Shown one piece after another: positions 11,418 to 37,853 of a stretch of DNA of 64,000 nucleotides. Location: positions 496,001 to 560,000 of the forward strand of contig NZ_FPAJ01000001.1 of assembly GCF_900116285.1 (NCBI RefSeq). The letters run 5' to 3'. A model generated the notes under the pieces. It had not been told where the DNA came from. It saw only the letters and a program-made list of their open reading frames with translations, and ran no database searches. Origin of the DNA: Sulfitobacter marinus. GTDB lineage: Bacteria > Pseudomonadota > Alphaproteobacteria > Rhodobacterales > Rhodobacteraceae. Position numbers and translations under genes: made by a program. Position 1 is the stretch's first letter, and each line of letters begins with the position of its first letter.

Positions 11418-11430
11418 GATCTCTCCAGAT

Positions 11431-11467
11431 AAAAAAACATCTGGCGCGTATGTCGCGGCCAGATGTT
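11431..11467 (-). terminator. Intrinsic terminator after the SufT/DUF59 gene
   Basis: On the minus strand AACATCTGGC pairs perfectly with GCCAGATGTT, followed by seven T. It separates the SufT gene from the downstream GDPD gene. Confidence 0.85.
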
Positions 11468-11515
11468 ACATTTCTACGATGGTTTCATGATGGTCTCGTG
11501 AAGTATGACTGACAT

Positions 11516-11878: not shown

Positions 11879-11966
11879 CGGGTGCCTCACTTCTTTTTCT
11901 GACACTTTATATAGGGATCAGTGCGCCCAGCGTCTAGTGGTGCGGCGCTGCGTTGGCCCTTCGGGT

Positions 11967-19359: not shown

Positions 19360-19435
<76 letters not shown>

Positions 19436-19718: not shown

Positions 19719-20423
19719 ATGGTTGATATTTGGGAGGGATTGAGCGCGGCATTCTGGCTGATCGTGCAGTTCGATACCGAGCTTTGGGAAATTAGCCTAA
19801 GATCGTTGCGTGTGACCCTGACCGCCTTGGTGATCGCATCCGTAATTGCCATCCCCTTGGGGACATATCTGGCGGTGCAGCGGTTTCGCTATCGGCGTTT
19901 TACGATATCGCTGATCAATGCGTTGATGGGCTTGCCGCCGGTCGTTGTGGGGTTGGTCGTGTATATTTTACTGTCCCGCTCTGGCCCTTTTGGCGTATTG
20001 AATCTGCTGTTTACACCGACGGCGATGATCATCGCGCAGGTGATCATTATCACGCCCGTTATCGCGTCCATTGCCCACCAGTCGATGCGCGAATTATGGG
20101 CTGAATATCATGATTTGCTAATCTCGCTGAACACATCGAAATGGCAGCGGATCACGACCTTGGTCCGGGATGGACGGCGTAATTTGCTGACCGCAGCGCT
20201 GGCGGGTTTTGGCCGCGCCATAGGCGAGGTGGGCGCAATCATGATCGTCGGCGGCAATATTGACCATGTGACCCGTGTGCTGACCACCGCCATCGCGCTT
20301 GAGACGGGAAAGGGCGATTTTGCGCTGGCCTTGGGGCTGGGCTTTGTCCTTATCGGCTTGGCGATTGTGGTGAATTTGGCGATCCACACCCTGTCGCGCA
20401 CAGAACGGGAGGGCCAATGGTGA
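19719..20423 (+). CDS. tupB: Tungstate ABC transporter permease
   Basis: A 234-residue inner membrane permease with about five to six helices. The binding-protein-dependent transport signature (EAA loop) is in LVRDGRRNLLTAALAGFGRAIGEVGAIMIVGGN, and NALMGLPPVVVGLVVYILLSRSGPFG is typical of TupB. The protein differs from molybdate ModB in this last motif and in operon order. It overlaps the ATPase gene by seven bases. With TupA and TupC it imports tungstate, which fits the molybdenum/tungsten formate dehydrogenase encoded 9 kb downstream. Confidence 0.88.
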   Translation: MVDIWEGLSAAFWLIVQFDTELWEISLRSLRVTLTALVIASVIAIPLGTYLAVQRFRYRRFTISLINALMGLPPVVVGLVVYILLSRSGPFGVLNLLFTPTAMIIAQVIIITPVIASIAHQSMRELWAEYHDLLISLNTSKWQRITTLVRDGRRNLLTAALAGFGRAIGEVGAIMIVGGNIDHVTRVLTTAIALETGKGDFALALGLGFVLIGLAIVVNLAIHTLSRTEREGQW

Positions 20424-21124
20424 GCCGTCTCTTTCCCCTGACATTACAAGATGTTGCCGTCCGCAGACAGGGTAAGCGGATCATTGGTCCCATTGATATG
20501 GTGCTGGATCCGTCGGGTCCGACGATGGTGATCGGGCCGAACGGATCGGGCAAAACCACATTGCTGCGCGTCATGCACGGGATTGAACGGATCAGTGCCG
20601 GTTCTGCCACTTGGGCCGCGCCGGACAGCTCAAAACACGCGTTTGTATTTCAGTCGCCTATTGTCATGCGCCGGTCGGTGGTTGAAAATCTGGCCTATCC
20701 GCTGCGGCTGGTGAAAACCCCCGCGGCGCAGATCAAGGAAACGGTGGATTATTGGCTGGACCGGATCGGGCTCACGCCGGTGCAAAACAGCCCTGCAACG
20801 CGTCTGTCGGGCGGCGAGCGGCAGAAACTGGCCATTGCCCGCGCCTTGGTCCGCAAACCTGATGTGCTGTTTCTGGATGAACCTTGCGCCAATCTGGACG
20901 GCCGCGCCACCCACGAGATCGAGACTCTGCTGCAAGAGATTGCAGAGGCGGGCACGCATCTGGTGATGGCCACCCACGACATGGGGCAGGCACGGCGGTT
21001 GGCCCATGATCTGGTGTTTATGCTGGACGGAAAAATTCACGAAACGGGGCCGGCGGCTACCAAGTTTTCGACCCCCGAAACCCAAGCACTTGCTGCTTTT
21101 TTAAGAGGAGACATTGTAACATGA
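20417..21124 (+). CDS. tupC: Tungstate ABC transporter ATP-binding protein
   Basis: A 235-residue ABC ATPase with Walker A GPNGSGKTT, Q-loop VFQSP, signature LSGGERQKLAIARAL and Walker B VLFLDEPCANLD, followed by the switch histidine in ATHD. It overlaps its neighbours on both sides (tupB by seven, tupA by four bases), so the three genes form one translationally coupled unit. It powers uptake through TupB. Confidence 0.88.
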   Translation: MVSRLFPLTLQDVAVRRQGKRIIGPIDMVLDPSGPTMVIGPNGSGKTTLLRVMHGIERISAGSATWAAPDSSKHAFVFQSPIVMRRSVVENLAYPLRLVKTPAAQIKETVDYWLDRIGLTPVQNSPATRLSGGERQKLAIARALVRKPDVLFLDEPCANLDGRATHEIETLLQEIAEAGTHLVMATHDMGQARRLAHDLVFMLDGKIHETGPAATKFSTPETQALAAFLRGDIVT

Positions 21125-21921
21125 AACGACTTTTAACTGCTGTCACACTGCTGCTATGGGCACAGACGGCCAGCGCCGATGAAATGCGTATGGCGGTGAC
21201 CACATCCTTTGATAACTCGGGTTTGGCCGATGTCTTGCTGCCGGCGATCAAGGCTGATGTTGATCTGGATGTAAGGCTTTTGGTGGTGGGCACCGGTCAG
21301 GCATTGCGCTTGGGCGAGGCGGGGGATGTCGATGCCGTATTGGTTCATTCCAAAGCGGCAGAGGAAAAATTCGTTGCCGAGGGTCACGGCACGCACCGCC
21401 GCGAGATCATGTATAATGATTTCGTTTTTGTCGGCCCCAACGCTGACCCCGCAGAGATTGCAGGTGCGACCAGTGCGGCGGATGCGGTGCAGCGGATCGA
21501 GGGTGTCAAAGCCTCGTTCGTCAGCCGTGGTGACGACAGCGGCACCCATAAGGCCGAGAAAAAGATCTGGGCCGGTGCGGGGCTGGACAGTGCTGCCTTC
21601 GGCGATTGGTACCGTCCGGTCGGGGCAGGGATGGGGGCCGCATTGAACACGGCTGCTGGCATGAATGCCTATATTCTGGCCGACCGCGCCAGCTGGCTGA
21701 ACTTTGGCAACAAAGCCGATCTGGCGCTGCTGTATTCCGGCGATCCGGCCCTGTTTAATCAATACGCACTGCTGCCGGTGAACCCCGATAAAAATGCCAA
21801 CATTCGCAACGACTTGGCGATGAAGCTTGAAGGCTGGTTGACCAGCCCGCGCGCCGCTGAATTGATCAATGGCTACAAGATCAACGGCCAACCGTTGTTC
21901 GTGTTTAACGCGACACCTTAA
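21121..21921 (+). CDS. tupA: Tungstate-binding periplasmic protein
   Basis: A 266-residue periplasmic protein with a signal peptide (MKRLLTAVTLLLWAQTASA). The mature start MAVTTSFDNSGL corresponds to the oxyanion-binding TTTS region of TupA, and VGTGQALRLGEAGDVDAVLVHS, FVSRGDDSGTHKAEKKIW and AAGMNAYILADRASW are conserved in the family. TupA selects tungstate over molybdate with high affinity. Its stop overlaps by four bases the stop of the convergent DUF6505 gene at a TTAA palindrome. Confidence 0.88.
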   Translation: MKRLLTAVTLLLWAQTASADEMRMAVTTSFDNSGLADVLLPAIKADVDLDVRLLVVGTGQALRLGEAGDVDAVLVHSKAAEEKFVAEGHGTHRREIMYNDFVFVGPNADPAEIAGATSAADAVQRIEGVKASFVSRGDDSGTHKAEKKIWAGAGLDSAAFGDWYRPVGAGMGAALNTAAGMNAYILADRASWLNFGNKADLALLYSGDPALFNQYALLPVNPDKNANIRNDLAMKLEGWLTSPRAAELINGYKINGQPLFVFNATP

Positions 21922-22439
21922 GGGTCGTGATGATGCCCATGATTATGGTCATGGGCATCATCCTCGTCCAGTGATCCATGCACGGCGAATTGCATAATGT
22001 CGGCATCCTGCGCTTCGATCACGCGGTAGGCTTCTTTAACCCCTGCGGGGGTCAATTCGCGCGACACGGTCAGCAGGGTGTTCGGCCCGTGATCTTCGCA
22101 CAGCTCGGCCATCTGGGCGATTTCCTCTTTGGCGACGGCAATCGCGGCCTCAAGATCTGGCGCGCCATAGATGTCGACGAAATGCTGGGCCAGCAGACCT
22201 GCCAGCACATCATGTTCATGCGGCTCAATCTGCGTCACCGCGACAAAACTGACCCTGCCAAAGGTCTCCATCCCCATCCATCCGTTGGCGAACGCTTGCC
22301 GCGCCTTGCCGACCAAATCACCTTCGCTCCAGTTTGAAAACTCGAACCCGCCGGAAATACACCATTCACCGGTGCGCGCAGGGTTGTGAAAAACGCGGGT
22401 GTCGCTTTCGTCAAAATGGATGGCGCGGGCTAGGTTCAT
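21918..22439 (-). CDS. DUF6505-type protein with histidine-rich tail (FDH accessory locus)
   Basis: A 173-residue soluble protein starting MNLARAIHFDESDTRVFHNPA. I recognise it from memory as the small DUF6505 type that accompanies formate dehydrogenase accessory genes in alphaproteobacteria; its function is unknown. The C-terminus is acidic and histidine-rich (DEDDAHDHNHGHHHDP), a likely metal-binding tail. Its start overlaps the stop of the preceding ligase-like gene by four bases, so it is the last gene of the minus-strand accessory operon. A role in metal handling for the FDH is inference only. Confidence 0.65.
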   Translation of the reverse strand: MNLARAIHFDESDTRVFHNPARTGEWCISGGFEFSNWSEGDLVGKARQAFANGWMGMETFGRVSFVAVTQIEPHEHDVLAGLLAQHFVDIYGAPDLEAAIAVAKEEIAQMAELCEDHGPNTLLTVSRELTPAGVKEAYRVIEAQDADIMQFAVHGSLDEDDAHDHNHGHHHDP

Positions 22440-23140
22440 ACGGGCCTCGTGAGGGTTGCGGTCAGCGGTATCAATACGGTTTCTTGGTTGATCTTCAACA
22501 ACAACCCCAGCTTTTCATCAAGCCCGACGTAGCCACCGGTCTGCCCGGCCACCGTGATTTCGCCGTCAAGGCCATGGGCAAGGCCAGCCCATTCTGTATG
22601 CAGTTTGGCCATGCCGCCGTCGGCCCAATTGTTGATCCCGACGAGGGTATGGCGTACCCAAGCTTCAAGCATTTGATCAGGGGCCAGATCGGCGCAACCT
22701 TCGGCGTAGAGCGCTGTTTGATCCGGGGTCAGGCCGGTGTCATCTTGATCGGGCCACATCGACAAGTTCAGCGCAACGACCAGCCAATCGGGCACAGCAT
22801 CAGGGTCGACATCTGATGCGGCCATTTTCAACTGCCCCGCACGCCCGCCATTGATATAAAGACCGCCATCCCAGCCCAGATGCACGCCCACCTCGGGCGG
22901 GGCCAAGGCCCCAAGCGCGTTCTGAAATCCGACGCCGGACACCGGCAGCATCGCCACAGCATCGGCAAGCGGCACATCGGGGGCAAAGACGATGGCCGCG
23001 CGCAAATTACTGGACCCTAGATCGTAGATCACCAACCCTGCATCACAGCCCGCTTCTGCAGCTGCGCAAGCCAAGACAAAGGGATCATCGCCCTTGGCGT
23101 CCTGGCCGGAAAACAGCGGTGGAAACGCGGGCTTTGTCAT
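22436..23140 (-). CDS. Biotin/lipoate-protein-ligase-like protein (DUF4444 type)
   Basis: A 234-residue protein whose first 180 residues resemble the biotin/lipoate A/B ligase fold (FSGQDAKGDDPFVLACAAAEAGCDAGLVIYDLGSSNLRAAIVFAPD, then GVHLGWDGGLYINGGRAGQLKMA). The C-terminal 50 residues look like the small DUF4444 tail. The expected active-site lysine after the 'NG' turn is replaced by arginine-alanine (GGRAGQLK), so it may no longer make acyl-adenylate. It is coupled by four-base overlaps with the genes on both sides, within the FDH accessory operon. Confidence 0.7.
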   Translation of the reverse strand: MTKPAFPPLFSGQDAKGDDPFVLACAAAEAGCDAGLVIYDLGSSNLRAAIVFAPDVPLADAVAMLPVSGVGFQNALGALAPPEVGVHLGWDGGLYINGGRAGQLKMAASDVDPDAVPDWLVVALNLSMWPDQDDTGLTPDQTALYAEGCADLAPDQMLEAWVRHTLVGINNWADGGMAKLHTEWAGLAHGLDGEITVAGQTGGYVGLDEKLGLLLKINQETVLIPLTATLTRPV

Positions 23141-24204
23141 GCATGCCCTTGGGATATCAGGTCTTTTGCCACTTTGCGGAAAGCCAAGGCTTGGGCGCTT
23201 TCGGGTTTGGACACCACAATCGGCGCACCGCCATCTGCCGCCAGACGAATGTCGATATGTAGCGGGATTTCTGCCAGCAACGGCACGTCCAGCTTCTGCG
23301 CTTCCGCAGCGACACCGCCATGGCCGAACAGATGTTCCTCGTGACCGCAGGCCGAACAGATATGCGTGGACATGTTTTCGATCATGCCGATCAGGGGCGT
23401 GCCAAGCTGGTTGAACATGTCGATCCCCTTGCGGGCGTCCAGCAGGGCGATGTCTTGCGGGGTCGACACGATGATTGCGCCGTTGAGTTCGGCCTTTTGC
23501 GCAAGTGTCATCTGCACATCACCGGTGCCGGGCGGCAGATCAACGATCAGAACATCCAGCGCGCCCCATTGCACCTGAGACAGCATTTGTTGCAACGCGC
23601 CCATAAGCATCGGGCCGCGCCAGACAACGGCCTGATCCTCGTTGGTCATCAGGCCCAGCGACATCATGGTTACGCCGTAGTTACGCATCGGCAGGATCGT
23701 TTTTCCATCGGGTGACGCGGGCCGCCCCGACACCCCCAACATGCGCGGTTGCGAGGGCCCGTAAACATCCGCATCCAGCAAGCCGACGCGGCGGCCTTCG
23801 GCGGCCAGCGCGCAGGCCAGATTGGCAGCAACGGTTGATTTACCCACTCCGCCCTTGCCGGATGCCACGGCGATAATCCGGTCGATGCCGGGCACTTTTT
23901 GCGGGCCTGCGGGCGCAGAGCTGCGTGATCCTTTCAGATCAGGTGGCGGTTTGGGGGCGCTATGGGCCGTCAACACGATCGAGACGGATTTGACCCCGTC
24001 CAGCGCTTTGATCTGCGACTCGCCGGTGTCTTTGAGGGTCGTGTAGGCCGCCGCGTGATCGCCGCTGACTTCCATCACGAAACGTACAACACTATCCTCG
24101 ACGGTCAAAGCCTTGACGATGCCTGCCTCGACGATAGATGTGCCGCTGATCGGGTCCTTTAGGTCTGCCAGAACGGCTAGAACGGTTTCTCTGGTGACGC
24201 TCAC
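23137..24204 (-). CDS. apbC: Mrp/NBP35 family iron-sulfur carrier ATPase
   Basis: A 355-residue P-loop protein. An N-terminal MIP18-like domain (about residues 1-80) is followed by the ATPase domain with the deviant Walker A SGKGGVGKST, DADVYGPSQPRMLG, DLPPGTGDVQ and the CxxC pair HICSACGHEEHLFGHGG that holds a bridging cluster in the dimer. It carries and delivers Fe-S clusters. The GTG at 24204 lies one base after the DUF6494 stop and gives the family's usual start (SVTRETVLAVL); an ATG at 24240 would overlap the upstream gene by 35 bases. Its position in this operon suggests it serves formate dehydrogenase maturation. Confidence 0.88.
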   Translation of the reverse strand: MSVTRETVLAVLADLKDPISGTSIVEAGIVKALTVEDSVVRFVMEVSGDHAAAYTTLKDTGESQIKALDGVKSVSIVLTAHSAPKPPPDLKGSRSSAPAGPQKVPGIDRIIAVASGKGGVGKSTVAANLACALAAEGRRVGLLDADVYGPSQPRMLGVSGRPASPDGKTILPMRNYGVTMMSLGLMTNEDQAVVWRGPMLMGALQQMLSQVQWGALDVLIVDLPPGTGDVQMTLAQKAELNGAIIVSTPQDIALLDARKGIDMFNQLGTPLIGMIENMSTHICSACGHEEHLFGHGGVAAEAQKLDVPLLAEIPLHIDIRLAADGGAPIVVSKPESAQALAFRKVAKDLISQGHA

Positions 24205-24205
24205 C

Positions 24206-24400
24206 TTAGGATTGCCCCTCGATTTTGCCGGTAACGACATGTTCCATGTCCAGCCCGTCGATGGTCAACACCATCTTGGCGTCAAAGCTTTTGCCCGTGG
24301 TGTCGCCGGCGTTGCGCAGCGCCTCTTCGATGGCTTGTTGTGATGTCACGCCAACCTGTTTCAGGAACTTGCGCATCGACATGTTGAAATCTTCGCTCAT
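24206..24400 (-). CDS. Small DUF6494-type protein
   Basis: A 64-residue protein (MSEDFNMSMRKFLKQVGVTSQQAIEEAL...) with a helical, partly amphipathic first half and IDGLDMEHVVTGKIEG at the end. From memory it matches the small DUF6494 family found between mrp and the polyferredoxin gene in alphaproteobacterial formate dehydrogenase loci. No function is known. It is directly upstream of, and probably coupled to, the Mrp gene. Confidence 0.65.
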   Translation of the reverse strand: MSEDFNMSMRKFLKQVGVTSQQAIEEALRNAGDTTGKSFDAKMVLTIDGLDMEHVVTGKIEGQS

Positions 24401-24520
24401 TTTCGGGTCTCCGATGTCTGGGGCCGCTGTGCGGTCAACCTTGTGGGCTGGTGCGGTGGCGGCAATGGGAAAGGGGTATGTGTTTTTGTAACTGGCGGAT
24501 CGGGGCGCTGGCTTGCAAAA

Positions 24521-26470
24521 TCAGTGATCCTTGCGCTTTGACAGATAATCATCGGTGGTGCGCGGGCGGGGGCGTTCGGCACCTGAAAACGGGTTGTTCT
24601 GGGAATGATACTGCGCATTGATGCGGCAGCCGTCACACATCTGGATCATCCGCGCCGTGTCGGAATTGGCGAACATCGAATGCTTTCCGGCCAGTTTCTC
24701 GACGATCTTTTCAACGGTGGATTTAACCCCGAACAGCGTCCCACATTCCACGCAGGCAAAGGGTTCTTCTTCGTTCAAGACCACCTGTTGCAGGGCGGTT
24801 TCGGTCAGGTTGAGCTGCGGCTCTAGCGTGATGGCGTTTTCGGGGCAGACATTGGCGCAAAGCCCGCATTGCAGACACGCGTCTTCCTGAAAACGTAGTT
24901 GCGGCATGTCAGGATTATCGCCAAGGGCACCTGACGGGCACAAAGACACGCAGGCCAGACATAAGGTGCAAGCGTCTGTATCGACCAGAACCGCGCCATA
25001 GGGGGCATCGATGGGCAGCGGTAGAACCTTTTGATCTGGGTTCAACGCCTTAGCCGCCAAACGCGCGACCTGCCGACGGCTGCCGATGGGTAGGATCGGC
25101 TCGACCGTGGGGGGGATGGGCGCGCGGTCAAACAGATGGTCTGACAGCGCATCAGGGTCAGCGATGTCCAGTAACATGGATTGACCCGGCGCAATCGCAT
25201 CCGCCAGCGCAAGCTGCGGGTCAAGGGCGTCGCGTTCGGTTTTCGGCCCCAACAGGATATCGACGTGGCTGAAGCCACTGGATAGCGCCGCGAGCATCTC
25301 GGAATGGCCAAAGCCGGACAGGGCGCTGACCTCCATCGGGATCACATGGGCGGGCAGGCCACGCCCAAAGCGGGCAGCCAGCTCGATCATTTCAGCGCCG
25401 TGATCATCATGGACCAACAGGGCCGCGTTCTCTCCTCCCGACATGCGATAGTTGCGTGCCAGCGTGCTGATCCGGCGGAACATGTGGTCAGGGCCGGGCA
25501 CGTCATAGCTGATGGCACCAGAGGGGCAGACGGCACTACAGGCACCGCATCCAGCGCAAATCATCGGGTCAATGCTGACGGTTTCGCCTGCAGACAGGAT
25601 GGCACCCGTGGGGCAGACGTTCAGGCAATTCGAACAGGCGGGTTGTTCGGCACGGGAATGGGCACAGAGCGTCGGCTCCATGCGGATATAAAGTGGTTTT
25701 TCAAAGGTGCCGACAATCTGGCTGGCGGCCAGAACAGCATCGGCGACGGCAGTCTGGCTACCCGGGTCGGCGCGCAGATAGCCGTCGCGTTTTTCGGGCG
25801 CGGGGAACAGCGGCTGGCCACCGGTCAGATCAAGGATCACATCGCATTGCGACACAGCACCGTCTTGCGGATCGGTCAGGGCAGGGGTGCCACGGCCACC
25901 GGCAAGGCTTTGTTGAAACTGATCAATGCGAATGTCGAACTGCCCCAAGGTGCCGCTGGCACCGCGTAGGGTGCCAATCACGATATCATAGGCGGGTGTG
26001 GGCAAAAATGCGCTGCCCGGTGCCAGCAGCACGGTTACGGCCAGCGCGTCAGATAATTTTTCAGCCGCTGCGATGGCGGCGTCTTCACCACCGATGATCA
26101 GGCAGGTGCCTTCGCTGATGATATCGATTGATTTTGGCGACGGCGGGGCCAGCATTGCGTCGGCAATCAGCGCGGCCATCTTGGGTGTGGTATCATCGCC
26201 ATCGGCGGTCCAGCCCGCGCGGTCGCGAATATCGACACATAGGGGTTCATCGGCGTTCAGCTCTTCGGCCAATGCGGCAAAACGGGGGGCTTCTTGGGCG
26301 CAGGCAATGACCACATCACCGGCCGAGATCGCCTTAGCCGCGGTTTCGATCTGCGTGGTGCACAGGCTTGTGTGGCATCCCGAACAGCTCAATCCGGTTG
26401 CTTCGCCCAAGGCTTTGAAATCGACCTGCTGTGAGCCGAGACAATCACAAACCAACAACGTTTTCGTCAT
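24521..26470 (-). CDS. Multi-cluster 4Fe-4S ferredoxin-like protein (FDH accessory)
   Basis: A 649-residue cytosolic protein. The N-terminal ~240 residues start MTKTLLVCDCLGSQ and contain CSGCHTSLC; two pairs of ferredoxin motifs follow (CSNCLNVCPTGA, CAGCGACSAVCPSGA; then CTLCLACVSLCPSGA and CLQCGLCANVCPENA). The C-terminal region has CVECGTLFG and MCDGCRINAQYH, which may bind another metal. No signal peptide or membrane segment is visible. AAGGGG lies six bases before the ATG at 26470. It is the first gene of the minus-strand accessory operon and probably moves electrons or clusters during assembly of formate dehydrogenase. Confidence 0.82.
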   Translation of the reverse strand: MTKTLLVCDCLGSQQVDFKALGEATGLSCSGCHTSLCTTQIETAAKAISAGDVVIACAQEAPRFAALAEELNADEPLCVDIRDRAGWTADGDDTTPKMAALIADAMLAPPSPKSIDIISEGTCLIIGGEDAAIAAAEKLSDALAVTVLLAPGSAFLPTPAYDIVIGTLRGASGTLGQFDIRIDQFQQSLAGGRGTPALTDPQDGAVSQCDVILDLTGGQPLFPAPEKRDGYLRADPGSQTAVADAVLAASQIVGTFEKPLYIRMEPTLCAHSRAEQPACSNCLNVCPTGAILSAGETVSIDPMICAGCGACSAVCPSGAISYDVPGPDHMFRRISTLARNYRMSGGENAALLVHDDHGAEMIELAARFGRGLPAHVIPMEVSALSGFGHSEMLAALSSGFSHVDILLGPKTERDALDPQLALADAIAPGQSMLLDIADPDALSDHLFDRAPIPPTVEPILPIGSRRQVARLAAKALNPDQKVLPLPIDAPYGAVLVDTDACTLCLACVSLCPSGALGDNPDMPQLRFQEDACLQCGLCANVCPENAITLEPQLNLTETALQQVVLNEEEPFACVECGTLFGVKSTVEKIVEKLAGKHSMFANSDTARMIQMCDGCRINAQYHSQNNPFSGAERPRPRTTDDYLSKRKDH

Positions 26471-26651
26471 GATATCCCCTTGTGCCGATTGTGGATCGTG
26501 CTTCAGGTAGTCAGGAAATGGGCCCACAGTAAACCGCAAATCTGGTTTCTGTGTGGGTCGGGGCCTAATGCAGGTGCAGCATCACCCGAGCTGAATAATA
26601 TTTATGTGCAATCACTTAACCGCATTAACCAGTAATCATTGATGTCTGTGG

Positions 26652-26668
26652 ATGCCGCGTCGCGGCAT
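26652..26668. promoter_or_regulatory. 17-bp perfect palindrome in the divergent FDH control region
   Basis: ATGCCGCG-T-CGCGGCAT is a perfect dyad with eight-base arms, in the 287-base gap between the divergent polyferredoxin and DUF3305-FDH operons. A weaker AAACCTTTG...CAAAGTTT repeat lies at about 26698-26720. Both are candidate operators. Confidence 0.45.
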
Positions 26669-26757
26669 AACAACCGCGTGAAGGGAAATATCAAAAAAAC
26701 CTTTGTCGTTTTCAAAGTTTTGCGTCACCATAAGGGCAGCCAAACGAGGGGATTTAA

Positions 26758-27324
26758 TTGCCGCGTAGCCATCCAAATTCAGTGACCATTCCGGTTGGTG
26801 TCGTTGTTCGACGCACGCCTGGGGTTACGCGTTGGGCAAAATATGCCTGGACGGTCACAGATATTTTGCCGGGCGCAGCACCTGCTGATTGGAAGGTTCT
26901 AAGGTCTGAAGGCGACGTTACCGAATACCACGCGGCGACCCTGCCACTTACGTTATATGTCCCTGATGCCGAGGCCTACGCGCATGAATTGCAGGCCCGC
27001 ATCCCGTCGATCTATACGGTGCTACGCCCCAATGCAGAAAGCGGCGGCGTGCCGTGGTCTGTCGCCCTTGTGACGGCATCCCCCTACGAGGCACAGGATT
27101 ACTGCGATTCTGCCGAAGAGTTGGTCGAAAAGCTGCCAATGCCGCATGGGTTGCACGCATTGATCGTTGAATTCGTGGATAAACACTACGAGGAAGAGGC
27201 CTTTGTGAAGCGTCGCCGTAAAAACGCGCGGGTGGATCAGACCGATGATGGTATAGGCGATGCCCGTATCCGCCAGACCACCGATGTGTACCGCGCCCCG
27301 CGCCGCCGCGAGGTGGCCAATTGA
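26758..27324 (+). CDS. DUF3305 protein (FDH accessory), TTG start
   Basis: A 188-residue soluble protein with IPVGVVVRRTPGVTRWAKYAWTV and the rest of the DUF3305 pattern (VTEYHAATLPLTLYVPDAEAYAHELQ, VALVTASPYEAQDY). The C-terminus is strongly basic (VKRRRKNAR, APRRREVAN). The start is TTG, set six bases after a clear GAGGGG; no ATG occurs earlier in the frame. DUF3305 genes sit upstream of FDH alpha in alphaproteobacteria; their role is not established. It is first in the plus-strand FDH operon. Confidence 0.75.
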   Translation: MPRSHPNSVTIPVGVVVRRTPGVTRWAKYAWTVTDILPGAAPADWKVLRSEGDVTEYHAATLPLTLYVPDAEAYAHELQARIPSIYTVLRPNAESGGVPWSVALVTASPYEAQDYCDSAEELVEKLPMPHGLHALIVEFVDKHYEEEAFVKRRRKNARVDQTDDGIGDARIRQTTDVYRAPRRREVAN

Positions 27325-27926
27325 CCTCAACGCTTTCATCATGGTCCCGCAGACGTGCCGCCGTCGCCGCCGAAGAGGCCGCGCTGAAGCGCGAAGCCGA
27401 TGATGCCATTGTTGCAGAGCAGCAGGCGGAGCTGGCCGAGAAAACCGATGCCGAGATTTTAGAGGAGCTGGGCCTGCCGGATCCTGATGCGCTGGTTCTG
27501 GGTGATAACGTTAAGGCATTCATGGTTAAGACCGTCCCGCAACACCTGCGCAACCGGGCGCTGCGATCCCTATGGCGGAGCAATCCCGTTCTGGCCTGCG
27601 TTGACGGGTTGAATGACTATGACGATGATTACCTGACCGGCAGCACGGGGCAGGGGCCGATCAAGACCGGTTATCAAGTTGGCAAAGGCATGTTGGCGCA
27701 TCTGCTCGAGATGGAGCGCCAAGCGGCCGCGCCTGCCGAGGCCGCGTTGGTGGATGCTGACGGCACCGATGAAGACGAAGAGGTGCTGGTGGTGGAGGGT
27801 GAGGTGATCGCCGCCACGGACGAGGTATCGGTTGATGACGCCCAAGTCGAAGAGGCCGAAGACATCGAACAAACCGCGCCGACCCGCCGCCGTATGCAAT
27901 TTCGTTTCGAAGGGCAAAGCACATGA
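27321..27926 (+). CDS. DUF3306 protein (FDH accessory), TTG start
   Basis: A 201-residue protein: a helical, Ala/Glu-rich N-terminus (SSWSRRRAAVAAEEAALKREADDA), a core with LPDPDALVLGDNVKAFMVKTVPQHLRNRALRSLWRSNPVLACVDGLNDYDDDY, then a long acidic tail ending TRRRMQFRFEG. The core is the DUF3306 signature. The TTG start overlaps the DUF3305 stop (TTGA) and follows GAGGTGG, so the two are translationally coupled. Function unknown; the constant linkage with DUF3305 and TorD suggests a shared role in FDH maturation. Confidence 0.73.
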   Translation: MTSTLSSWSRRRAAVAAEEAALKREADDAIVAEQQAELAEKTDAEILEELGLPDPDALVLGDNVKAFMVKTVPQHLRNRALRSLWRSNPVLACVDGLNDYDDDYLTGSTGQGPIKTGYQVGKGMLAHLLEMERQAAAPAEAALVDADGTDEDEEVLVVEGEVIAATDEVSVDDAQVEEAEDIEQTAPTRRRMQFRFEGQST

Positions 27927-28537
27927 ATGTGGCCGCAACATTGCCTGAAGTCACCCAAGAGGACCGCCTGCGCGCCGATCTGTACAACTATCTTGGGGTG
28001 ATGCTGTCCGGGCCGCCCGATCAGATGTTGCTGGATCAAACCGCAAACCTTGAGGGCGACGAGACTCCATTGGGCCAAGCGATCCAAGGGCTGGCGCGCG
28101 TGGCCAAGGTATCGCGGCCAAAATCGGTGCGCACAGAGTTCAACGCTTTGTTTATCGGGCTAGGGCGTGGCGAATTGCTGCCCTATGCCAGCTATTATCT
28201 GACCGGGTTTTTGAACGAAAAACCGCTGGCGAATTTGCGCAAGACCATGGCCAGCCTCGGGATGACCCGCGCCCAAGATGTGTTCGAACCCGAAGACAAC
28301 ATCGCATCCTTGATGGAGATGATGGCCGGCATGATCGTCGGGCGGTTTGGTCGCGTGGCCACAATCAGCGAACAACAACAGTTTTTTAACGCACATATCG
28401 GCAGTTGGGCAGCGCATTATTTTGCCGATCTGCAAGCTGCCAAATCATCAGTTCTATACGCGTCTGTGGGGGCCGTTGGCGCGGCCTTTATGGATATCGA
28501 ACGCGAAGCATTCCGCATGACCAAAGCTGAACGGTAA
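27923..28537 (+). CDS. TorD/DmsD-family molybdoenzyme chaperone
   Basis: A 204-residue all-helical protein of the TorD superfamily, with DRLRADLYNYLGVMLSGPPD at the front, then RTEFNALFIGLGRGELLPYASYYLTGFLNEKPL, which holds the E-F-x-x-L-F-x-x-P/L region of the family. Such chaperones bind the Tat leader of molybdenum or tungsten enzymes and hold the apoprotein for cofactor insertion before export. The ATG overlaps the DUF3306 stop. The likely client is the Tat-exported FDH alpha subunit 350 bases downstream. Confidence 0.85.
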   Translation: MNVAATLPEVTQEDRLRADLYNYLGVMLSGPPDQMLLDQTANLEGDETPLGQAIQGLARVAKVSRPKSVRTEFNALFIGLGRGELLPYASYYLTGFLNEKPLANLRKTMASLGMTRAQDVFEPEDNIASLMEMMAGMIVGRFGRVATISEQQQFFNAHIGSWAAHYFADLQAAKSSVLYASVGAVGAAFMDIEREAFRMTKAER

Positions 28538-28591
28538 TGCGTAACATGTCGGTGGGGACGCCCGCCGGTTAACTTGAAGGGAAGGTACCAA

Positions 28592-28783
28592 ATGACCGAC
28601 AAGACAAAAGGCGCAAGCCGCCGCGACTTTCTGAAATTTGCAGGCACAGCTGCACCCGCGGCCGCCGCCGCAATTGTTGCCGGCGGGGCAACGGGGGCCG
28701 AAGCACAACCGGCAGACCTGTCATCCGAGACCATGCAGGATACCGCGCACACCCGCGCCTATCTGGAAAGCACACGTTTCTAG
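28592..28783 (+). CDS. Small Tat-signal peptide protein of formate dehydrogenase region
   Basis: Only 63 residues: a twin-arginine motif (SRRDFLKFAG), an Ala-rich hydrophobic stretch (APAAAAAIVAGGATGAEA) and about 20 mature residues ending AYLESTRF. It matches the 'formate dehydrogenase region TAT target' type of small protein that precedes FDH alpha genes in many proteobacteria. The ATG at 28592 follows AAGGGAAGG. Its function is unknown; a periplasmic peptide or Tat-pathway partner of the FDH are both possible. Confidence 0.78.
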   Translation: MTDKTKGASRRDFLKFAGTAAPAAAAAIVAGGATGAEAQPADLSSETMQDTAHTRAYLESTRF

Positions 28784-28883
28784 TTTCTAATAGCCAACTC
28801 AACACCGGTGACGGGCCTGACATGCCAACGCGGTGAGCGACGTAGAATTCTCCGGCTGATGCTGGAAAAAGGGGAGAAATACC

Positions 28884-31883
28884 ATGCTGAGGAAAAAGAC
28901 CAACGGGTATACACGCAGATCAGGCCGCGCGCCGATCGTCGTGAACAACGGCAATAGTACGATTGACCGACGCGGGTTTCTGCGCGGATCGGGCCTTGCC
29001 ATTGGCGGGCTAACGGCCATCGCCGCCACGGGTGGTTCCGTTACCAAAGCGACTGCCCAAACCGCTGCGACCCGCGCGGTTGAGACGGTTAAATCGGTAT
29101 GTACCCACTGTTCCGTCGGTTGCACCGTGATTGCCGAGGTCGATAATGGCGTCTGGACGGGGCAGGAACCCGGCTGGGACAGCCCGTTCAACCTAGGTGC
29201 GCATTGTGCCAAAGGGGCATCGGTACGTGAACATGCCCATGGCGAACGTCGCCTGAAATATCCGATGAAAAAAGAAGGCGGCGAATGGGTTCGCATCAGC
29301 TGGGAGCAGGCGATCAACGAGATCGGCGACGGCATGATGAAAATCCGCGACGAAAGCGGGCCGGATTCGGTGTACTGGCTGGGCAGCGCCAAGCATAACA
29401 ACGAACAGGCCTACCTGTTCCGCAAGTTTGCGGCCTATTGGGGCACCAACAACGTCGACCATCAGGCGCGTATCTGCCATTCAACCACGGTTGCGGGTGT
29501 TGCGAACACCTGGGGCTACGGTGCCATGACCAACAGCTATAATGACATCCACAACAGCAAGGCGATTTTTGTCATCGGGGGCAACCCGGCGGAGGCACAC
29601 CCGGTATCGCTGCTGCATCTGCTGAAGGCCAAGGAACAAAACAACGCGCCGCTGATCGTATGCGACCCGCGCTTCACCCGCACGGCGGCCCATGCTGACG
29701 AATATGTGCGCTTCCGGCCCGGATCGGACGTGGCGCTTGTCTGGGGTATCCTGTGGCACATCTTTGAAAACGGATGGGAAGACAAAGAATTCATCCGCAC
29801 CCGTGTCTGGGGCATGGACGAGATCAAGACCGAAGTGGCCAAATGGACGCCGGACGAGGTTGAGCGTGTCACAGGTACACCCGGTGTCCAGCTTGAGCGT
29901 GTGGCGCGGACCTTGGTTAACAACCGCCCGGGCACCGTGATCTGGTGTATGGGTGGCACGCAGCACACCAATGGTAACAACAACACGCGCGCCTACTGCA
30001 TCTTGCAGCTTGCACTTGGCAACATGGGCACCGCAGGCGGCGGCACCAATATTTTCCGCGGCCACGACAACGTACAGGGTGCGACTGACCTTGGCGTTCT
30101 GGCTGATACATTGCCGGGGTATTACGGTCTTTCCGCCGGTGCCTGGGCCCACTGGGCGCGGGTGTGGGAAGAAGACCTAGATTACCTCAAAGGACGGTTC
30201 AGCAGTGAGACCGTTGGCGATACGCCAATGATGAACCTGACCGGTATCCCCGTAAGTCGTTGGATTGACGGCGTTTTGGAAGAGGCCGAAGACCTCGACC
30301 AGCCCGATAGCACACGGGCGATGGTTTTGTGGGGCCATGCGCCGAACTCTCAGACCCGTCAAAAAGAAATGAAAACGGCGATGGAAAAGCTCGACATGCT
30401 GGTCGTGGTCGATCCCTATCCGACAGTGTCCGCCGTGCTGCAAGACCGCAGCGACGGGGTGTACCTGCTGCCGGCCTGTACGCAGTTTGAAACGCGCGGT
30501 TCTGTGACGGCGTCCAACCGGTCGCTGCAATGGCGCGACAAGGTGGTTGATCCGCTGTTTGAATCGCTGCCCGATCACACGATCATCGCAATGTTTGCCG
30601 AAAAATTCGGTTTCCACGACAAAATCTTCCGCAACATCGCAATCGATGAAGGTGGTGAGCCAAACGTCGAGGACATCACCCGCGAGTTTAACCGTGGTAT
30701 GTGGACCATCGGCTATACGGGCCAAAGCCCCGAGCGGATGAAGATGCACATGGCCAATCAACACACCTTCGATCGCACAACCTTGCGGGCGAATGGCGGG
30801 CCGGCCGATGGCGATTTTTACGGGATGCCATGGCCGTCTTGGGGCACAGCCGAGATGAACCACCCCGGCACGGCGAACCTATATGATATGTCGCTGCCGG
30901 TGGCCAAGGGCGGGCTGACCTTCCGCGCCCGTTTCGGTGTGGAACGCGACGGCGATAACCTGCTGGCCGAGGGTGTATTCTCGGCTGGGTCCGAGATCGA
31001 GGACGGCTACCCCGAGTTCACCATGCAAATGCTGCGTGATCTGGGTTGGGACGGTGACCTGACCGACGAAGAACGCGCATCGATCAATTTTGTTGCGGGC
31101 TTCCCTGATGGCGATCCGAATATGGGCAACGCATCGGATGACGGTGGTGCCAATGAAGAAGTCGGTGAAACCTCGCAGACTGGTGAAATTCCATCAGATT
31201 ACGTCAAAAAGACGGGCGGCGTGAACTGGAAGACCGACCTTTCCGGCGGTATTCAGCGGGTCGCAATTGCCCATGGCTGTGCGCCCTTTGGCAACGCCAA
31301 GGCCCGCGCCGTGGTCTGGACTTTCCCCGATCCGGTGCCAATCCACCGCGAGCCGCTGTATTCGAACCGGCGCGATCTGGTGGCCGATTACCCGACTTAT
31401 GAGGATAAAAAATTCTGGCGGGTCCCCACCATGTATGCCTCGATCCAGGAGAAGGATTTCTCGGGGGATTATCCGATCATCCTGACCTCTGGTCGTTTGG
31501 TTGAATACGAGGGGGGCGGCGACGAGAGCCGTTCAAACCCGTGGCTGGCCGAACTCCAACAAGACATGTTTGTCGAAATTAACACACGGGATGCCAACAA
31601 TCTGGGCGTCCGTGACGGGCAGCAAGTCTGGGTCGAAGGCCCCGAAGGTGGCAAGGTCAAAGTGATGGCCATGGTCACCGAGCGGGTCGGCGAAGGTGTG
31701 GCGTTCATGCCGTTCCACTTTGGCGGACATCTGGAAGGTGTTGATCTGAGGGATAAATATCCCGAAGGGGCCGATCCATATGTCTTGGGCGAAAGCTCCA
31801 ACACCGCGCAAACCTATGGCTATGACAGTGTAACCCAGATGCAAGAGACCAAGGCTACTCTTTGCAAAATCTGGACAGCGTAA
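28884..31883 (+). CDS. Formate dehydrogenase catalytic (alpha) subunit, Cys type, Tat-exported
   Basis: A 999-residue molybdopterin oxidoreductase. The leader carries the Tat motif DRRGFLRGSG (Arg29-Arg30). A 4Fe-4S site uses Cys73, Cys76, Cys80 and Cys108. The metal ligand is Cys198 followed by His199 (RICHSTTV), where some enzymes have selenocysteine. The later DVALVWGILWHIFENGW and the C-terminal molydopterin-binding beta-barrel (YPIILTSGRLVEY, GQQVWVEGPEGGKVKV) complete the fold. It oxidises formate to CO2 in the periplasm and passes electrons through the beta and gamma subunits to the quinone pool. The tungstate importer nearby suggests tungsten may be the metal; sequence alone cannot tell. 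GGGGAG precedes the ATG. Confidence 0.93.
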   Translation: MLRKKTNGYTRRSGRAPIVVNNGNSTIDRRGFLRGSGLAIGGLTAIAATGGSVTKATAQTAATRAVETVKSVCTHCSVGCTVIAEVDNGVWTGQEPGWDSPFNLGAHCAKGASVREHAHGERRLKYPMKKEGGEWVRISWEQAINEIGDGMMKIRDESGPDSVYWLGSAKHNNEQAYLFRKFAAYWGTNNVDHQARICHSTTVAGVANTWGYGAMTNSYNDIHNSKAIFVIGGNPAEAHPVSLLHLLKAKEQNNAPLIVCDPRFTRTAAHADEYVRFRPGSDVALVWGILWHIFENGWEDKEFIRTRVWGMDEIKTEVAKWTPDEVERVTGTPGVQLERVARTLVNNRPGTVIWCMGGTQHTNGNNNTRAYCILQLALGNMGTAGGGTNIFRGHDNVQGATDLGVLADTLPGYYGLSAGAWAHWARVWEEDLDYLKGRFSSETVGDTPMMNLTGIPVSRWIDGVLEEAEDLDQPDSTRAMVLWGHAPNSQTRQKEMKTAMEKLDMLVVVDPYPTVSAVLQDRSDGVYLLPACTQFETRGSVTASNRSLQWRDKVVDPLFESLPDHTIIAMFAEKFGFHDKIFRNIAIDEGGEPNVEDITREFNRGMWTIGYTGQSPERMKMHMANQHTFDRTTLRANGGPADGDFYGMPWPSWGTAEMNHPGTANLYDMSLPVAKGGLTFRARFGVERDGDNLLAEGVFSAGSEIEDGYPEFTMQMLRDLGWDGDLTDEERASINFVAGFPDGDPNMGNASDDGGANEEVGETSQTGEIPSDYVKKTGGVNWKTDLSGGIQRVAIAHGCAPFGNAKARAVVWTFPDPVPIHREPLYSNRRDLVADYPTYEDKKFWRVPTMYASIQEKDFSGDYPIILTSGRLVEYEGGGDESRSNPWLAELQQDMFVEINTRDANNLGVRDGQQVWVEGPEGGKVKVMAMVTERVGEGVAFMPFHFGGHLEGVDLRDKYPEGADPYVLGESSNTAQTYGYDSVTQMQETKATLCKIWTA

Positions 31884-31895
31884 GGGAGAGATAAG

Positions 31896-32489
31896 ATGGC
31901 TAGAGCAAAATTCCTCTGCGACGCTGAACGCTGCATCGAATGCAACGCCTGCGTTACCGCCTGTAAAAACGAACATGAAGTGCCATGGGGCATCAACCGC
32001 CGTAAGGTTGTCACGATCAACGATGGCAAACCCGGCGAACGGTCGATCTCGGTCGCCTGTATGCACTGCTCGGACGCACCTTGTATGGCGGTTTGTCCCA
32101 CCGACTGTTTCTATCAAACAGACGACGGTGTGGTGCTGCACTCAAAAGACCTGTGCATCGGCTGCGGCTACTGCTTTTACGCATGCCCCTTTGGTGCGCC
32201 GCAGTACCCCCAAGCGGGCAACTTCGGGTCGCGCGGGAAAATGGACAAATGTACCTTCTGTGCCGGTGGCCCCGAAGAAAACAACTCCACCGCCGAATTC
32301 CAGAAATACGGGCGCAACCGCATCGCCGAAGGCAAACTGCCGATCTGCGCCGAGATGTGTTCAACCAAGGCGTTGCTTGCCGGTGACGGCGATGTCGTCT
32401 CGGGCATCTACCGCGAACGGGTTGTGGCACGGGGCTTTGGCTCCGGCGCATGGGGCTGGGGCACCGCCTATGAACAAAAGGGCGGCTAA
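31896..32489 (+). CDS. Formate dehydrogenase iron-sulfur (beta) subunit
   Basis: A 197-residue four-cluster ferredoxin of the FDH3/DMSO-reductase beta type. Cysteine groups: CIECNACVTACKNEH, CMHCSDAPCMAVCPTDC, CIGCGYCFYACPFGA and CTFCAG...CAEMC, i.e. four 4Fe-4S sites. It has no signal of its own, so it is probably exported together with the Tat-bearing alpha subunit. It links the alpha subunit to the membrane cytochrome. It starts 12 bases after the alpha stop. Confidence 0.92.
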   Translation: MARAKFLCDAERCIECNACVTACKNEHEVPWGINRRKVVTINDGKPGERSISVACMHCSDAPCMAVCPTDCFYQTDDGVVLHSKDLCIGCGYCFYACPFGAPQYPQAGNFGSRGKMDKCTFCAGGPEENNSTAEFQKYGRNRIAEGKLPICAEMCSTKALLAGDGDVVSGIYRERVVARGFGSGAWGWGTAYEQKGG

Positions 32490-32515
32490 CTGCCCGTTAT
32501 GATATGACAATCATA

Positions 32516-32543
32516 GGGGCGGCCTGTTACGGGACCGCCCTTA
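32516..32543 (+). terminator. Hairpin between FDH beta and gamma genes
   Basis: GGGGCGG pairs with CCGCCCT over a 12-base loop, followed by TTATTT. It may lower expression of the gamma subunit or protect the upstream mRNA. Confidence 0.5.
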
Positions 32544-32569
32544 TTTGATCCGCCAAAAGGGATATAACG

Positions 32570-33784
32570 ATGTCGCGCTTCATTGCCGTTTTCTTGATTT
32601 GCCTGCCCGTTTTGCTGGGTCTGTCCGCTGGGTCGGAGGCCGACGCGCAAACCAATGTACCGCCTCAAACCAGCACGGTTGATAGCAACCCTGCCGTGTC
32701 CAAGCTGGATGACATCTTGCGGCGGCAAGAGGGGCTGAAAACCGCAGACGATGTGATCCGCGCGAATGAAACGGGCGATCCGGATGCCGCCATGCCCACC
32801 ACCGACCAATTGGGCACCCTTGGCGGGGCGTCTGACGCCGATCTGTGGCGCGCCTTCCGCTTTGGCAAGGCTGACATCACCACCCAGGCGCGCGTGCCTG
32901 CGGCCACGACCCTGATTCAAGACGGCGGCATGTGGTGGCTCGACTTTCGTCGTGGCCCCCTGCAAACGATTGCGATTTACCTGCTGGGCGGCACCTTGCT
33001 GGCGCTGGCACTGTTCTATCTGATCCGGGGCCGTATCCGCATCGAGGGCGAAAAAACCGGGCGGACGCTGCTGCGGTTTCAGGCCTTTGAACGCTTTGGC
33101 CACTGGATGCTGGCATCGTCCTTTGTGCTGCTCGGGGTGACGGGCCTGATTTCCTTGTTTGGCCGCACCGTGCTGATCCCCGCCTTTGGTCACGAGGCGT
33201 TTTCATCCGTCGCGATTGTCTGCAAATGGGTGCATAACAACGTGTCATGGGCCTTTATGATCGCGCTGATATTCGTGTTCATCATATGGGTCGTCCACAA
33301 TATCCCCGACCGCACAGACCTGCGCTGGCTGGCAAAGGGTGGCGGGTTGATCGGGGGCGGCCACCCGCCTGCGAAAAAGTTCAACGCGGGCCAAAAGCTG
33401 ATTTTCTGGGCGGTGATCCTGCTGGGCGGGTCGATTTCTCTCTTCGGTTTATCCTTGCTTTTCCCGTTTGAATTCAACCTCTTCGGTCATACGTTTTCGT
33501 GGCTGAACGGCTTGGGCGCGCCGGGATGGTTCGGATTTGCCGATCTGCCATACCCGCTCGCTCCGCAAGAGGAAATGCAATACGCCCAACTGTGGCACGC
33601 GCTGATCAGCCTGATCCTGACCGCGATTATTTTCGCACATATCTATCTAGGCTCCATCGGCATGGAAGGCGCGTTTGATGCCATGGGCAAGGGCGAAGTC
33701 GAAGAACAATGGGCCCGCGAACATCACAGCATCTGGGCCGAAGAAGTCGCCGGACCAAAACCCGCAGCACGCAAGGAGCCATAA
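32570..33784 (+). CDS. Formate dehydrogenase cytochrome b (gamma) subunit
   Basis: A 404-residue membrane subunit. A signal peptide (cleavage near ADA, residue 25) leads to a ~110-residue periplasmic domain, which is an extension relative to E. coli FdnI. Four to five membrane helices follow, with haem-b histidines in FERFGHWMLAS, CKWVHNNVSWAF, LWHALISL and FAHIYLG. It carries electrons from the beta subunit to ubiquinone. AAGGG precedes the ATG. Confidence 0.9.
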   Translation: MSRFIAVFLICLPVLLGLSAGSEADAQTNVPPQTSTVDSNPAVSKLDDILRRQEGLKTADDVIRANETGDPDAAMPTTDQLGTLGGASDADLWRAFRFGKADITTQARVPAATTLIQDGGMWWLDFRRGPLQTIAIYLLGGTLLALALFYLIRGRIRIEGEKTGRTLLRFQAFERFGHWMLASSFVLLGVTGLISLFGRTVLIPAFGHEAFSSVAIVCKWVHNNVSWAFMIALIFVFIIWVVHNIPDRTDLRWLAKGGGLIGGGHPPAKKFNAGQKLIFWAVILLGGSISLFGLSLLFPFEFNLFGHTFSWLNGLGAPGWFGFADLPYPLAPQEEMQYAQLWHALISLILTAIIFAHIYLGSIGMEGAFDAMGKGEVEEQWAREHHSIWAEEVAGPKPAARKEP

Positions 33785-33785
33785 C

Positions 33786-33917
33786 ATGAAAGCGTTTCTA
33801 ACCGCCGTCGTCGCCATGGTTGTCATTGCTGCGGGGGCCTATCAGATTTTAGAGGTTATCAACGTGTCCACGGCCAAAGCGGGCACGTCGTCAGAGAACG
33901 TGCGCCTGTCCGATTAG
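33786..33917 (+). CDS. Small single-pass membrane peptide at end of FDH operon
   Basis: A 43-residue peptide (MKAFLTAVVAMVVIAAGAYQ...) with one hydrophobic helix and a short polar tail ending ENVRLSD. The ATG follows AAGGAG and begins one base after the gamma stop, so it belongs to the operon. It could be a small FDH subunit or assembly factor; I do not recognise a named family. Confidence 0.6.
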   Translation: MKAFLTAVVAMVVIAAGAYQILEVINVSTAKAGTSSENVRLSD

Positions 33918-34744: not shown

Positions 34745-34818
34745 TGGAGCGGGTAACGAGAATCGAACTCGTAACTAAAGCTTGGGAAGCTGCCGTGATA
34801 CCTTTTCACCATACCCGC
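34745..34818 (-). tRNA. tRNA-Gly (anticodon CCC)
   Basis: Minus-strand cloverleaf: acceptor GCGGGTA with TACCCGC, D arm GTGA...TCAC, anticodon loop TTCCCAA giving CCC, T loop TTCGATT and an encoded CCA (34745-34747). The anticodon stem GCAGC/GCTTT has one C-U mismatch. Length 74 bases. Confidence 0.92.
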
Positions 34819-37760: not shown

Positions 37761-37853
37761 CAAATCAGTCCTCAAAACCTTTGCCGCAACATAGCGAAGG
37801 CTGCGCGAGACGAAAGCCAAGATACGTCGCAAAATGCCGCATCCGCGCCCTCG

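Follow-up and report, generated by a model that had tools for sequence, protein, structure and literature searches.

A Sulfitobacter marinus gene cassette for a probable periplasmic tungsten formate dehydrogenase of the FDH3 kind and its candidate biogenesis factors

We analysed a stretch of 64,000 nucleotides from Sulfitobacter marinus (contig NZ_FPAJ01000001.1, positions 496,001 to 560,000; hereafter the window) and consider that the genes at positions 19719-33917 of it probably form a cassette for a periplasmic, membrane-anchored, cysteine (Cys)-ligated tungsten formate dehydrogenase (FDH) of the FDH3/SoFdhAB kind, together with dedicated biogenesis factors. The beta subunit exceeds the curated NCBIfam cut-off for FDH3_beta (345 bits vs 240), a family that it shares with, and that is presumably named after, the FDH3 of Methylorubrum extorquens. 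The alpha subunit has its best structural match in chain A of PDB 9VAP (1376.7 bits, against 322.8 bits for the runner-up structure), and beta matches chain B of the same entry (338 bits). According to the accessible text of a 2026 review (PMC13397495), 9VAP is SoFdhAB of Shewanella oneidensis, an oxygen-tolerant enzyme with a Cys-ligated tungsten and a terminal sulfur, one [4Fe-4S] cluster in A and four in B, and a tunnel lined by H653, V666, Y776 and T927. Counted on the printed alignment with 9VAP, none of the four tunnel residues is changed, and the ligand Cys lies in the string ARICHSTTVAG, aligned with an identical string in chain A. A first-pass annotation, made from the letters alone, had called the enzyme a Cys-type FDH, and this alignment bears it out. 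Judged from these matches, the FDH is of the FDH3/SoFdhAB kind, and its active site would hold tungsten. A difference from SoFdhAB probably lies in the surroundings: here a cytochrome b561 gamma subunit and an arm of a pseudo-ligase and DUF6505 adjoin alpha and beta.

Sixteen open reading frames (ORFs) span the locus. Every gene named in the first-pass annotation is present and in frame, and the family names hold in searches with hidden Markov models. More specifically, the importer genes tupBCA on the plus strand run towards five minus-strand genes (DUF6505, ligase-like, Mrp, DUF6494 and polyferredoxin), and divergent from these is the FDH operon (DUF3305, DUF3306, TorD, a twin-arginine translocation (Tat) peptide, alpha, beta, gamma and a 43-aa peptide). 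The features are as follows, with iron-sulfur abbreviated to Fe-S.

19719..20423, plus strand: tupB, permease of a tungstate-type ABC importer (NF041773 TupB, 164.5 bits; curated cut-off 320)
20417..21124, plus strand: tupC, importer ATPase (ABC_tran, 84 bits; sits between tupB and tupA)
21121..21921, plus strand: tupA, importer substrate-binding protein (NF041772 TupA, 190.9 bits; curated cut-off 400; sole NCBIfam match)
21918..22439, minus strand: DUF6505 protein with a His-rich tail (PF20115, 270 bits)
22436..23140, minus strand: pseudo biotin/lipoate ligase with DUF4444 (PF16917, 242 bits; DUF4444, 37 bits)
23137..24240, minus strand: Mrp/ApbC-type Fe-S carrier ATPase (PF10609, NUBPL/ParA, 329 bits)
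24206..24400, minus strand: DUF6494 small protein (PF20104, 104 bits)
24521..26470, minus strand: polyferredoxin (16 Cys columns making four [4Fe-4S] sites, plus CxxC...CxxC)
26471..26757 (287 nt), no strand: intergenic gap separating the two divergent operons, probable promoter region (from the sequence)
26758..27324, plus strand: DUF3305 protein (PF11749, 131 bits)
27321..27926, plus strand: DUF3306 protein, acidic (PF11748, 69 bits)
27923..28537, plus strand: TorD/NarJ-family chaperone (PF02613, Nitrate_red_del, 99.3 bits; cut-off 22.2)
28592..28783, plus strand: 63-aa Tat (RRDFLK) peptide (TIGR02811, 34.9 bits; cut-off 48.45)
28884..31883, plus strand: FDH alpha, FDH3/SoFdhA type by sequence, with twin-arginine signal (by eye) and Cys ligand (9vap_A, 1376.7 bits)
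31896..32489, plus strand: FDH3 beta, Fe-S subunit (NF038355, 345 bits, cut-off 240; 9vap_B, 338 bits)
32570..33784, plus strand: FDH gamma, cytochrome b561-type membrane subunit (TIGR01583, 139.7 bits; cut-off 115.85)
33786..33917, plus strand: 43-aa hydrophobic peptide directly after FDH gamma

The association of the partner families with the enzyme was assessed in 180 genomes of the phylum from 101 genera, the same set being used for every family search. FDH3 was counted as present where FDH3_beta exceeded its cut-off, weaker matches being left uncounted (172 of the 180 genomes have some match); polyferredoxin was counted at E <= 1e-15 and strong ligase-like matches at E < 1e-45. FDH3_beta, DUF3305, DUF3306 and polyferredoxin were each found in 21 genomes, and these are the identical 21 genomes, belonging to 14 of the 101 genera, with no occurrence in the other 159. 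The Fisher p value is 7.5e-28 for DUF3305 and likewise for DUF3306, and 1.9e-17 when counted by genus, with relatedness left unmodelled; neither family was found in any of 14 control genomes. We propose that DUF3305, DUF3306 and polyferredoxin are dedicated factors of the FDH3 class. DUF6505 (15 of 180) was found solely within the 21 FDH3 genomes, and the strong ligase-like matches (14 of 180) are all nested in the DUF6505 set; some ligase-like match exists in 111 genomes in all, and the remaining weak ones were discounted as ordinary ligases on the strength of their score and not of a tree. FdhD was found in 70 genomes, all 21 FDH3 genomes among them. The first-pass annotation had named frequent occurrence of the locus genes without any FDH as evidence against its suggested maturation system. 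With FDH taken as FDH3, DUF3305, DUF3306 and polyferredoxin pass this comparison cleanly, as do DUF6505 and the strong ligase-like matches, and DUF6494 does not: one of the 8 genomes with DUF6494 (G107; G and L numbers are our handles for genomes and loci) is without FDH3, and in two further genomes the gene is located away from the FDH3 locus, so that DUF6494 was rejected as an FDH-specific factor. In loci L024, L027 and L028, DUF6494 stands separate from FDH genes, beside unrelated families.

Gene order was read in 80 loci fetched via DUF6505 from named genomes. Being the best 80 among at least 565 relatives, with titles that nearly all point to Rhodobacterales, they speak for conservation and not for breadth. 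The recurring order is alpha, Tat peptide, TorD, DUF3306 and DUF3305 on the minus strand, followed by polyferredoxin, DUF6494, Mrp, ligase-like and DUF6505 on the plus strand. Alpha is present in 74 of the 80 loci, the other six stopping at a contig edge before alpha; the Tat peptide was detected in 71 and a tup-like gene in 33. Plasmid pDSM14862_c of S. indolifex DSM 14862 keeps the order and is annotated as FDH3 with DUF names. Outside the window's class, one genus (L019, L022 and L023, from G070, G138 and G174) carries tupBCA, FdhD, MobA, MobB, MoeA, DUF6505, ligase-like, Mrp and polyferredoxin, and continues with DUF3305, DUF3306, TorD, Tat peptide, alpha, beta and gamma.

Tungstate import is tied to these enzymes as well. 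TupA was found in 26 of the 180 genomes, including all 21 with FDH3 (the match in G030 is a weak fragment); put differently, in 23 of 23 genomes with FDH3 or FDH1 vs 3 of 157 others. In 14 of the 21 it lies no more than 30 kb from the FDH3 locus; taking 70 kb of a 4.5-Mb genome as the near zone (1.6% per genome), about 0.3 would be expected at random. FdhD lies within 10 kb in 9 of the 21. The tungsten link is stronger than the first-pass annotation could see, given tupA in 21 of 21, SoFdhAB as the closest structure and cofactor genes within the cluster in three genomes. In S. marinus itself an FdhD-MobA-MobB-MoeA operon stands in trans (L111:5914-10317; 70/58/53/57% to L019). As a separate observation, locus L004 (G083) has tupB and tupC without a tupA match there, its tupA being 2.6 Mb off.

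The tup genes might instead serve an FDH1 encoded elsewhere, their position beside FDH3 being incidental and FDH3 possibly holding molybdenum. S. marinus does have a second FDH alpha, of the MeFDH1 type (L110:5887-8655, contig G000:C10; 1337.7 bits to 7vw6). FDH1 genomes were first picked by score band, after which 31 fetched alpha genes were compared with this FDH1: 18 match it at 54-86% identity (1033-1700 bits), and the remaining 13 stay at or below 41% identity (633 bits or less). This gives 19 FDH1 genomes including S. marinus, of which 17 are among the 21 FDH3 genomes, so that tupA by itself is no proof of tungsten in FDH3. TupA is present in all 19, and in G135, which is without FDH3, tup joins FdhD-MobA-MobB-MoeA. 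The accessible text of PMC13197769 defines the tungsten pathway of M. extorquens, MoeA1-MobB-FdhD with tupBCA, for FDH1 and not for FDH3. Our genomes resemble that pathway in having tup near MoeA/MobB genes in relatives and the FdhD-MobA-MobB-MoeA operon in S. marinus; the DUF proteins seen here are not named in that part of the source, nor did the paper turn up in a full-text search for their names. The separation comes from four genomes with FDH3 and no FDH1 (G028, G151, G066 and G098; for genomes whose alpha gene was left unfetched, G098 among them, the score list is the ground for calling FDH1 absent). In each of the four, tupA lies 9-16 kb away from the FDH3 locus, and matches to MoeA and to MobB or MobA are found close to tup. 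As SoFdhAB, the characterised FDH3 relative, is a tungsten enzyme according to PMC13397495, we regard service to FDH1 with incidental placement as very unlikely.

Under our preferred reading of a cassette with its own biogenesis factors, TupBCA would import tungstate, and MoeA, MobB, MobA and FdhD, in trans here, would make and sulfurate the tungsten bis-molybdopterin guanine dinucleotide cofactor (W-bis-MGD), as PMC13197769 established for FDH1. TorD would hold apo-alpha bearing its Tat signal, DUF3305 and DUF3306 may act as a class-specific cofactor-loading pair, and the polyferredoxin, with Mrp in this lineage, may be a source of clusters or electrons. Cofactor and five [4Fe-4S] clusters would be loaded in the cytoplasm by DUF3305, DUF3306 and the polyferredoxin ahead of Tat export, and export of alpha together with beta would be the last step. 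We infer each of these steps, and for DUF3305, DUF3306, DUF6505, the pseudo-ligase and DUF6494 the roles are guessed from their associations. The maturation system suggested in the first-pass annotation is partly supported: it gains from the co-occurrence with FDH3 and from the tungsten link, and loses in that DUF6494 is unspecific, the motifs of its 'ligase' are gone and the folds of DUF3305 and DUF6505 matched nothing.

Among the core partners, the 21 polyferredoxins share 19 invariant Cys columns; 15 of the 16 [4Fe-4S] motif columns are among them, the remaining one being kept in 17 proteins, and the C-terminal CxxC...CxxC is invariant. Outside the window's class, G070, G138 and G174 excepted, there are five polyferredoxins, which are shorter or more diverged. 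The TorD family (PF02613) is matched in the window and in all 20 fetched FDH3 loci; the window protein scores 55.6 vs 132 bits against the TorD equivalog NF003442. The Tat peptide is below the curated TIGR02811 cut-off (34.9 vs 48.45 bits), and its length, RRDFLK motif and position fit. A pattern screen for such peptides gave 16 of 21 loci raw; judged by eye, its hits in the window, L008 and L014 are spurious, leaving 14 of 21 credible when P0016 is counted for the window.

Neither DUF3305 nor DUF3306 has a segment that looks membrane-spanning (19-residue hydropathy peaks at 0.94 and 0.75) or a Cys-rich motif. DUF3305 matches the C-terminal part of NCBIfam NF011058, MobA with a DUF3305 domain (67.5 bits vs a whole-model cut-off of 820); because that model joins the two, there is a hint that DUF3305 may work near bis-MGD. 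No MobA-DUF3305 fusion protein was seen among the loci read, and an apparent MobA-DUF3305 or other fusion in G151 was rejected, the extra length of its DUF3305 frame being an upstream false frame. The predicted structure of DUF3305 (predicted local distance difference test, pLDDT, 87.7) found nothing better than E 0.32 in a Foldseek search of the PDB. A resemblance to the ferredoxin-like chaperone NapD, suggested by the strand/helix order in part of the model, is without search support and is not claimed.

Alternatively, the polyferredoxin and its operon could carry electrons to or from the FDH, or regulate it, and not build it. Its four [4Fe-4S] sites and its matches to HdrA/FwdF/polyferredoxin-like families would suit such a module. 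By eye the polyferredoxin has neither a Tat nor a Sec signal and alpha has a Tat signal, so the mature FDH and the polyferredoxin would be in different compartments; gamma already gives electrons an exit to the membrane, and the companions DUF3305 and DUF3306 are the very proteins without a Cys-rich motif. We hold an electron-transfer or regulatory role to be unlikely and biogenesis to be the better account of this operon.

The second arm of the cassette centres on the ligase-like protein. It meets the biotin/lipoate ligase family profile (PF16917, 242 bits) and is nearest to PDB 3bfm (E 6e-92 over 233 residues), with BirA at 28 bits. The column of the BirA catalytic Lys, which we take to be K183, holds no Lys in any of the 14 ligase-like proteins and reads RRSRRLRLERLVVV (R,R,S,R,R,L,R,L,E,R,L,V,V,V); GRGRRG, presumably the BirA-type adenylate loop motif, is matched as a pattern in 0 of 14. 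With both absent, the protein should not be called a ligase. PDB 3bfm is itself biotin protein ligase-like and its entry name gives no function, whereas our analysis places such proteins in FDH3 genomes. The ligase-like gene directly neighbours DUF6505 in 13 of 14 genomes; in G028 the two are about 1.1 kb apart with one frame between, and there the frame L010:7320-8606 has a phosphate-selective porin match. In G016 the ligase-like match is weaker (95.9 bits). The DUF6505 model (pLDDT 85.2) found nothing better than E 0.15 in the PDB by Foldseek, and the closest DUF6505 among the matches listed is from Sulfitobacter sp. CW3 (89%).

Taxonomically, a single FDH3 genome of the window's class is without the pseudo-ligase and DUF6505 arm, which is also present in one genus outside that class. 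Family searches found neither DUF6505 nor a strong ligase-like match in G050, G066, G086 and G098, whose polyferredoxin-TorD-FDH order resembles S. oneidensis SO_4506-4510 as given in the accessible text of PMC5826389. DUF6352, a further family of unknown function, adjoins DUF6505 in the FDH3 cluster of L008, L012 and L015, all of the window's class, and in L012 a bacterial WD40-repeat protein (10892-12289) stands between FDH gamma and DUF6494. The Mrp of the locus is a second genomic copy, 59% identical to the other (G000:C3:520037) and just under the ApbC equivalog NF008669 (344.7 vs 348 bits); G188, of the same genus group, also has an FDH-type Mrp. In the Mrp tree five trans copies of the genus stand apart from the FDH-locus copies, and those of G070, G138 and G174 group with the trans kind on long branches, giving 2 label changes instead of 1 (1 in 2% of bootstrap trees); the rows in question carry a long-branch warning. 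Pseudo-ligase and DUF6505, with the second Mrp and DUF6494 here and DUF6352 elsewhere, might protect or deliver clusters or cofactor. Tentatively, and with clearly less confidence than for the cassette as such, one may go further and picture a dedicated assembly line for an oxygen-tolerant tungsten enzyme, in which a motif-stripped biotin-ligase fold and DUF6505 were recruited as a new cofactor or cluster chaperone alongside DUF3305, DUF3306 and polyferredoxin.

It is also conceivable that a mobile cassette merely passes on pseudo-ligase, DUF6505, Mrp and DUF6494 together, without any role for them in the FDH. In favour of this, the cassette or its genes are plasmid-borne in relatives and here it is flanked by two tRNA genes; DUF6505 is absent in 6 and a strong ligase-like match in 7 of the 21 FDH3 genomes, and DUF6494 is promiscuous. 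Set against this, every genome among the 180 with DUF6505 or a strong ligase-like match also has FDH3, and G016 still keeps DUF6505 and polyferredoxin although the parts are scattered over its chromosome. To us these observations leave mere co-inheritance a low probability, and a working second arm is preferred. The bracketing genes are tRNA-Val (19360-19435) and tRNA-Gly (34745-34818), both on the minus strand, with an ORF at 34020-34730 also inside; an Rfam scan of 15000-40000 found no RNA element except these two. Because relatives have the cassette or its genes on plasmids, arrival by tRNA-linked insertion is possible.

Several points weigh against the reading of the locus as an FDH3 cassette with its own biogenesis factors. 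TupA and TupB fall below their NCBIfam equivalog cut-offs, a value reached by none of the TupA proteins of the 180 genomes, so tungstate as the tup substrate rests on family and context. FDH1, itself a tungsten enzyme, accompanies FDH3 in 17 of 21 genomes, S. marinus included, and only four genomes separate the two. The FDH3 genomes are related and not independent (14 genera of 101), DUF6494 is not FDH-specific, and a single clade of all FDH-locus Mrps is not supported by the tree, which carries the long-branch warning. The models of DUF3305 and DUF6505 match no solved fold, which is no proof of a new one. The maturation reading is drawn from genomics throughout. Finally, in the accessible text of PMC11540253, Cupriavidus necator mutants in fdh (membrane FDH) and mobB are without a fitness effect, and we accordingly put less weight on growth with formate; that FDH may or may not be of the FDH3 kind.

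The core association is already in print: Bay et al. (2015; PMC4464133) describe fdh operons (NarJ/TorD-fdhGHI) accompanied by DUF3305, DUF3306, fdh tat, TorD/DmsD and fer4, a 4Fe-4S protein, the same genes that stand together here. That work calls DUF3305 and DUF3306 putative membrane proteins, whereas no hydrophobic segment is seen here, and the terms DUF6505, DUF6494 and DUF4444 are absent from its text. A full-text search for the DUF names brought up two papers, one of which is unrelated judging from its title. In the open-licence literature we found neither the strict co-occurrence with FDH3 and the relation of FDH3 and FDH1 to tupA, nor any report tying DUF6505 and the 3bfm family to an FDH. 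Compared with E. coli FDH-N and FDH-O, with their FdhD and FdhE, the enzyme is likewise a Tat-exported alpha-beta-gamma FDH with FdhD in the genome; it differs in that tblastn with E. coli FdhE (E 0.1) gave no match in the window, in the 20 FDH3 loci or in 5 further loci, a search that a distant FdhE could escape.

Oxygen-tolerant tungsten FDHs are sought for the conversion of CO2 to formate, and by its title a 2026 paper (PMC13396061) names alpha-subunit maturation as the major bottleneck in heterologous production of the related FDH1. The strict co-occurrence yields a short list of candidates for the proteins that equip such enzymes with W-bis-MGD and their five Fe-S clusters. If DUF3305, DUF3306, polyferredoxin and, where present, pseudo-ligase and DUF6505 are the missing FDH3 factors, they can be co-expressed and tested singly.

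As for finer features of the locus, the tight coupling by overlapping starts and stops claimed in the first-pass annotation holds for most of tupBCA, the minus-strand set and DUF3305-DUF3306-TorD. The overlaps are 7 nt for tupB/tupC, 35 nt for Mrp/DUF6494 (with the longest Mrp start) and 4 nt each for tupC/tupA, the convergent tupA and DUF6505, DUF6505/ligase-like, ligase-like/Mrp, DUF3305/DUF3306 and DUF3306/TorD. It does not extend to polyferredoxin and DUF6494, separated by 120 nt, or to the genes from TorD onward; the polyferredoxin start is most likely 26470. The last feature, previously drawn as an 80-aa frame with a TTG start at 33675, was replaced by the 43-aa peptide from 33786, which has a relative behind gamma in L004 (56%) and an unnamed 41-aa ORF in the same place in S. 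indolifex. Further downstream, 35721-37832 encodes a large protein whose N-terminal 2Fe-2S domain, by eye, makes it resemble corrinoid-protein activators.

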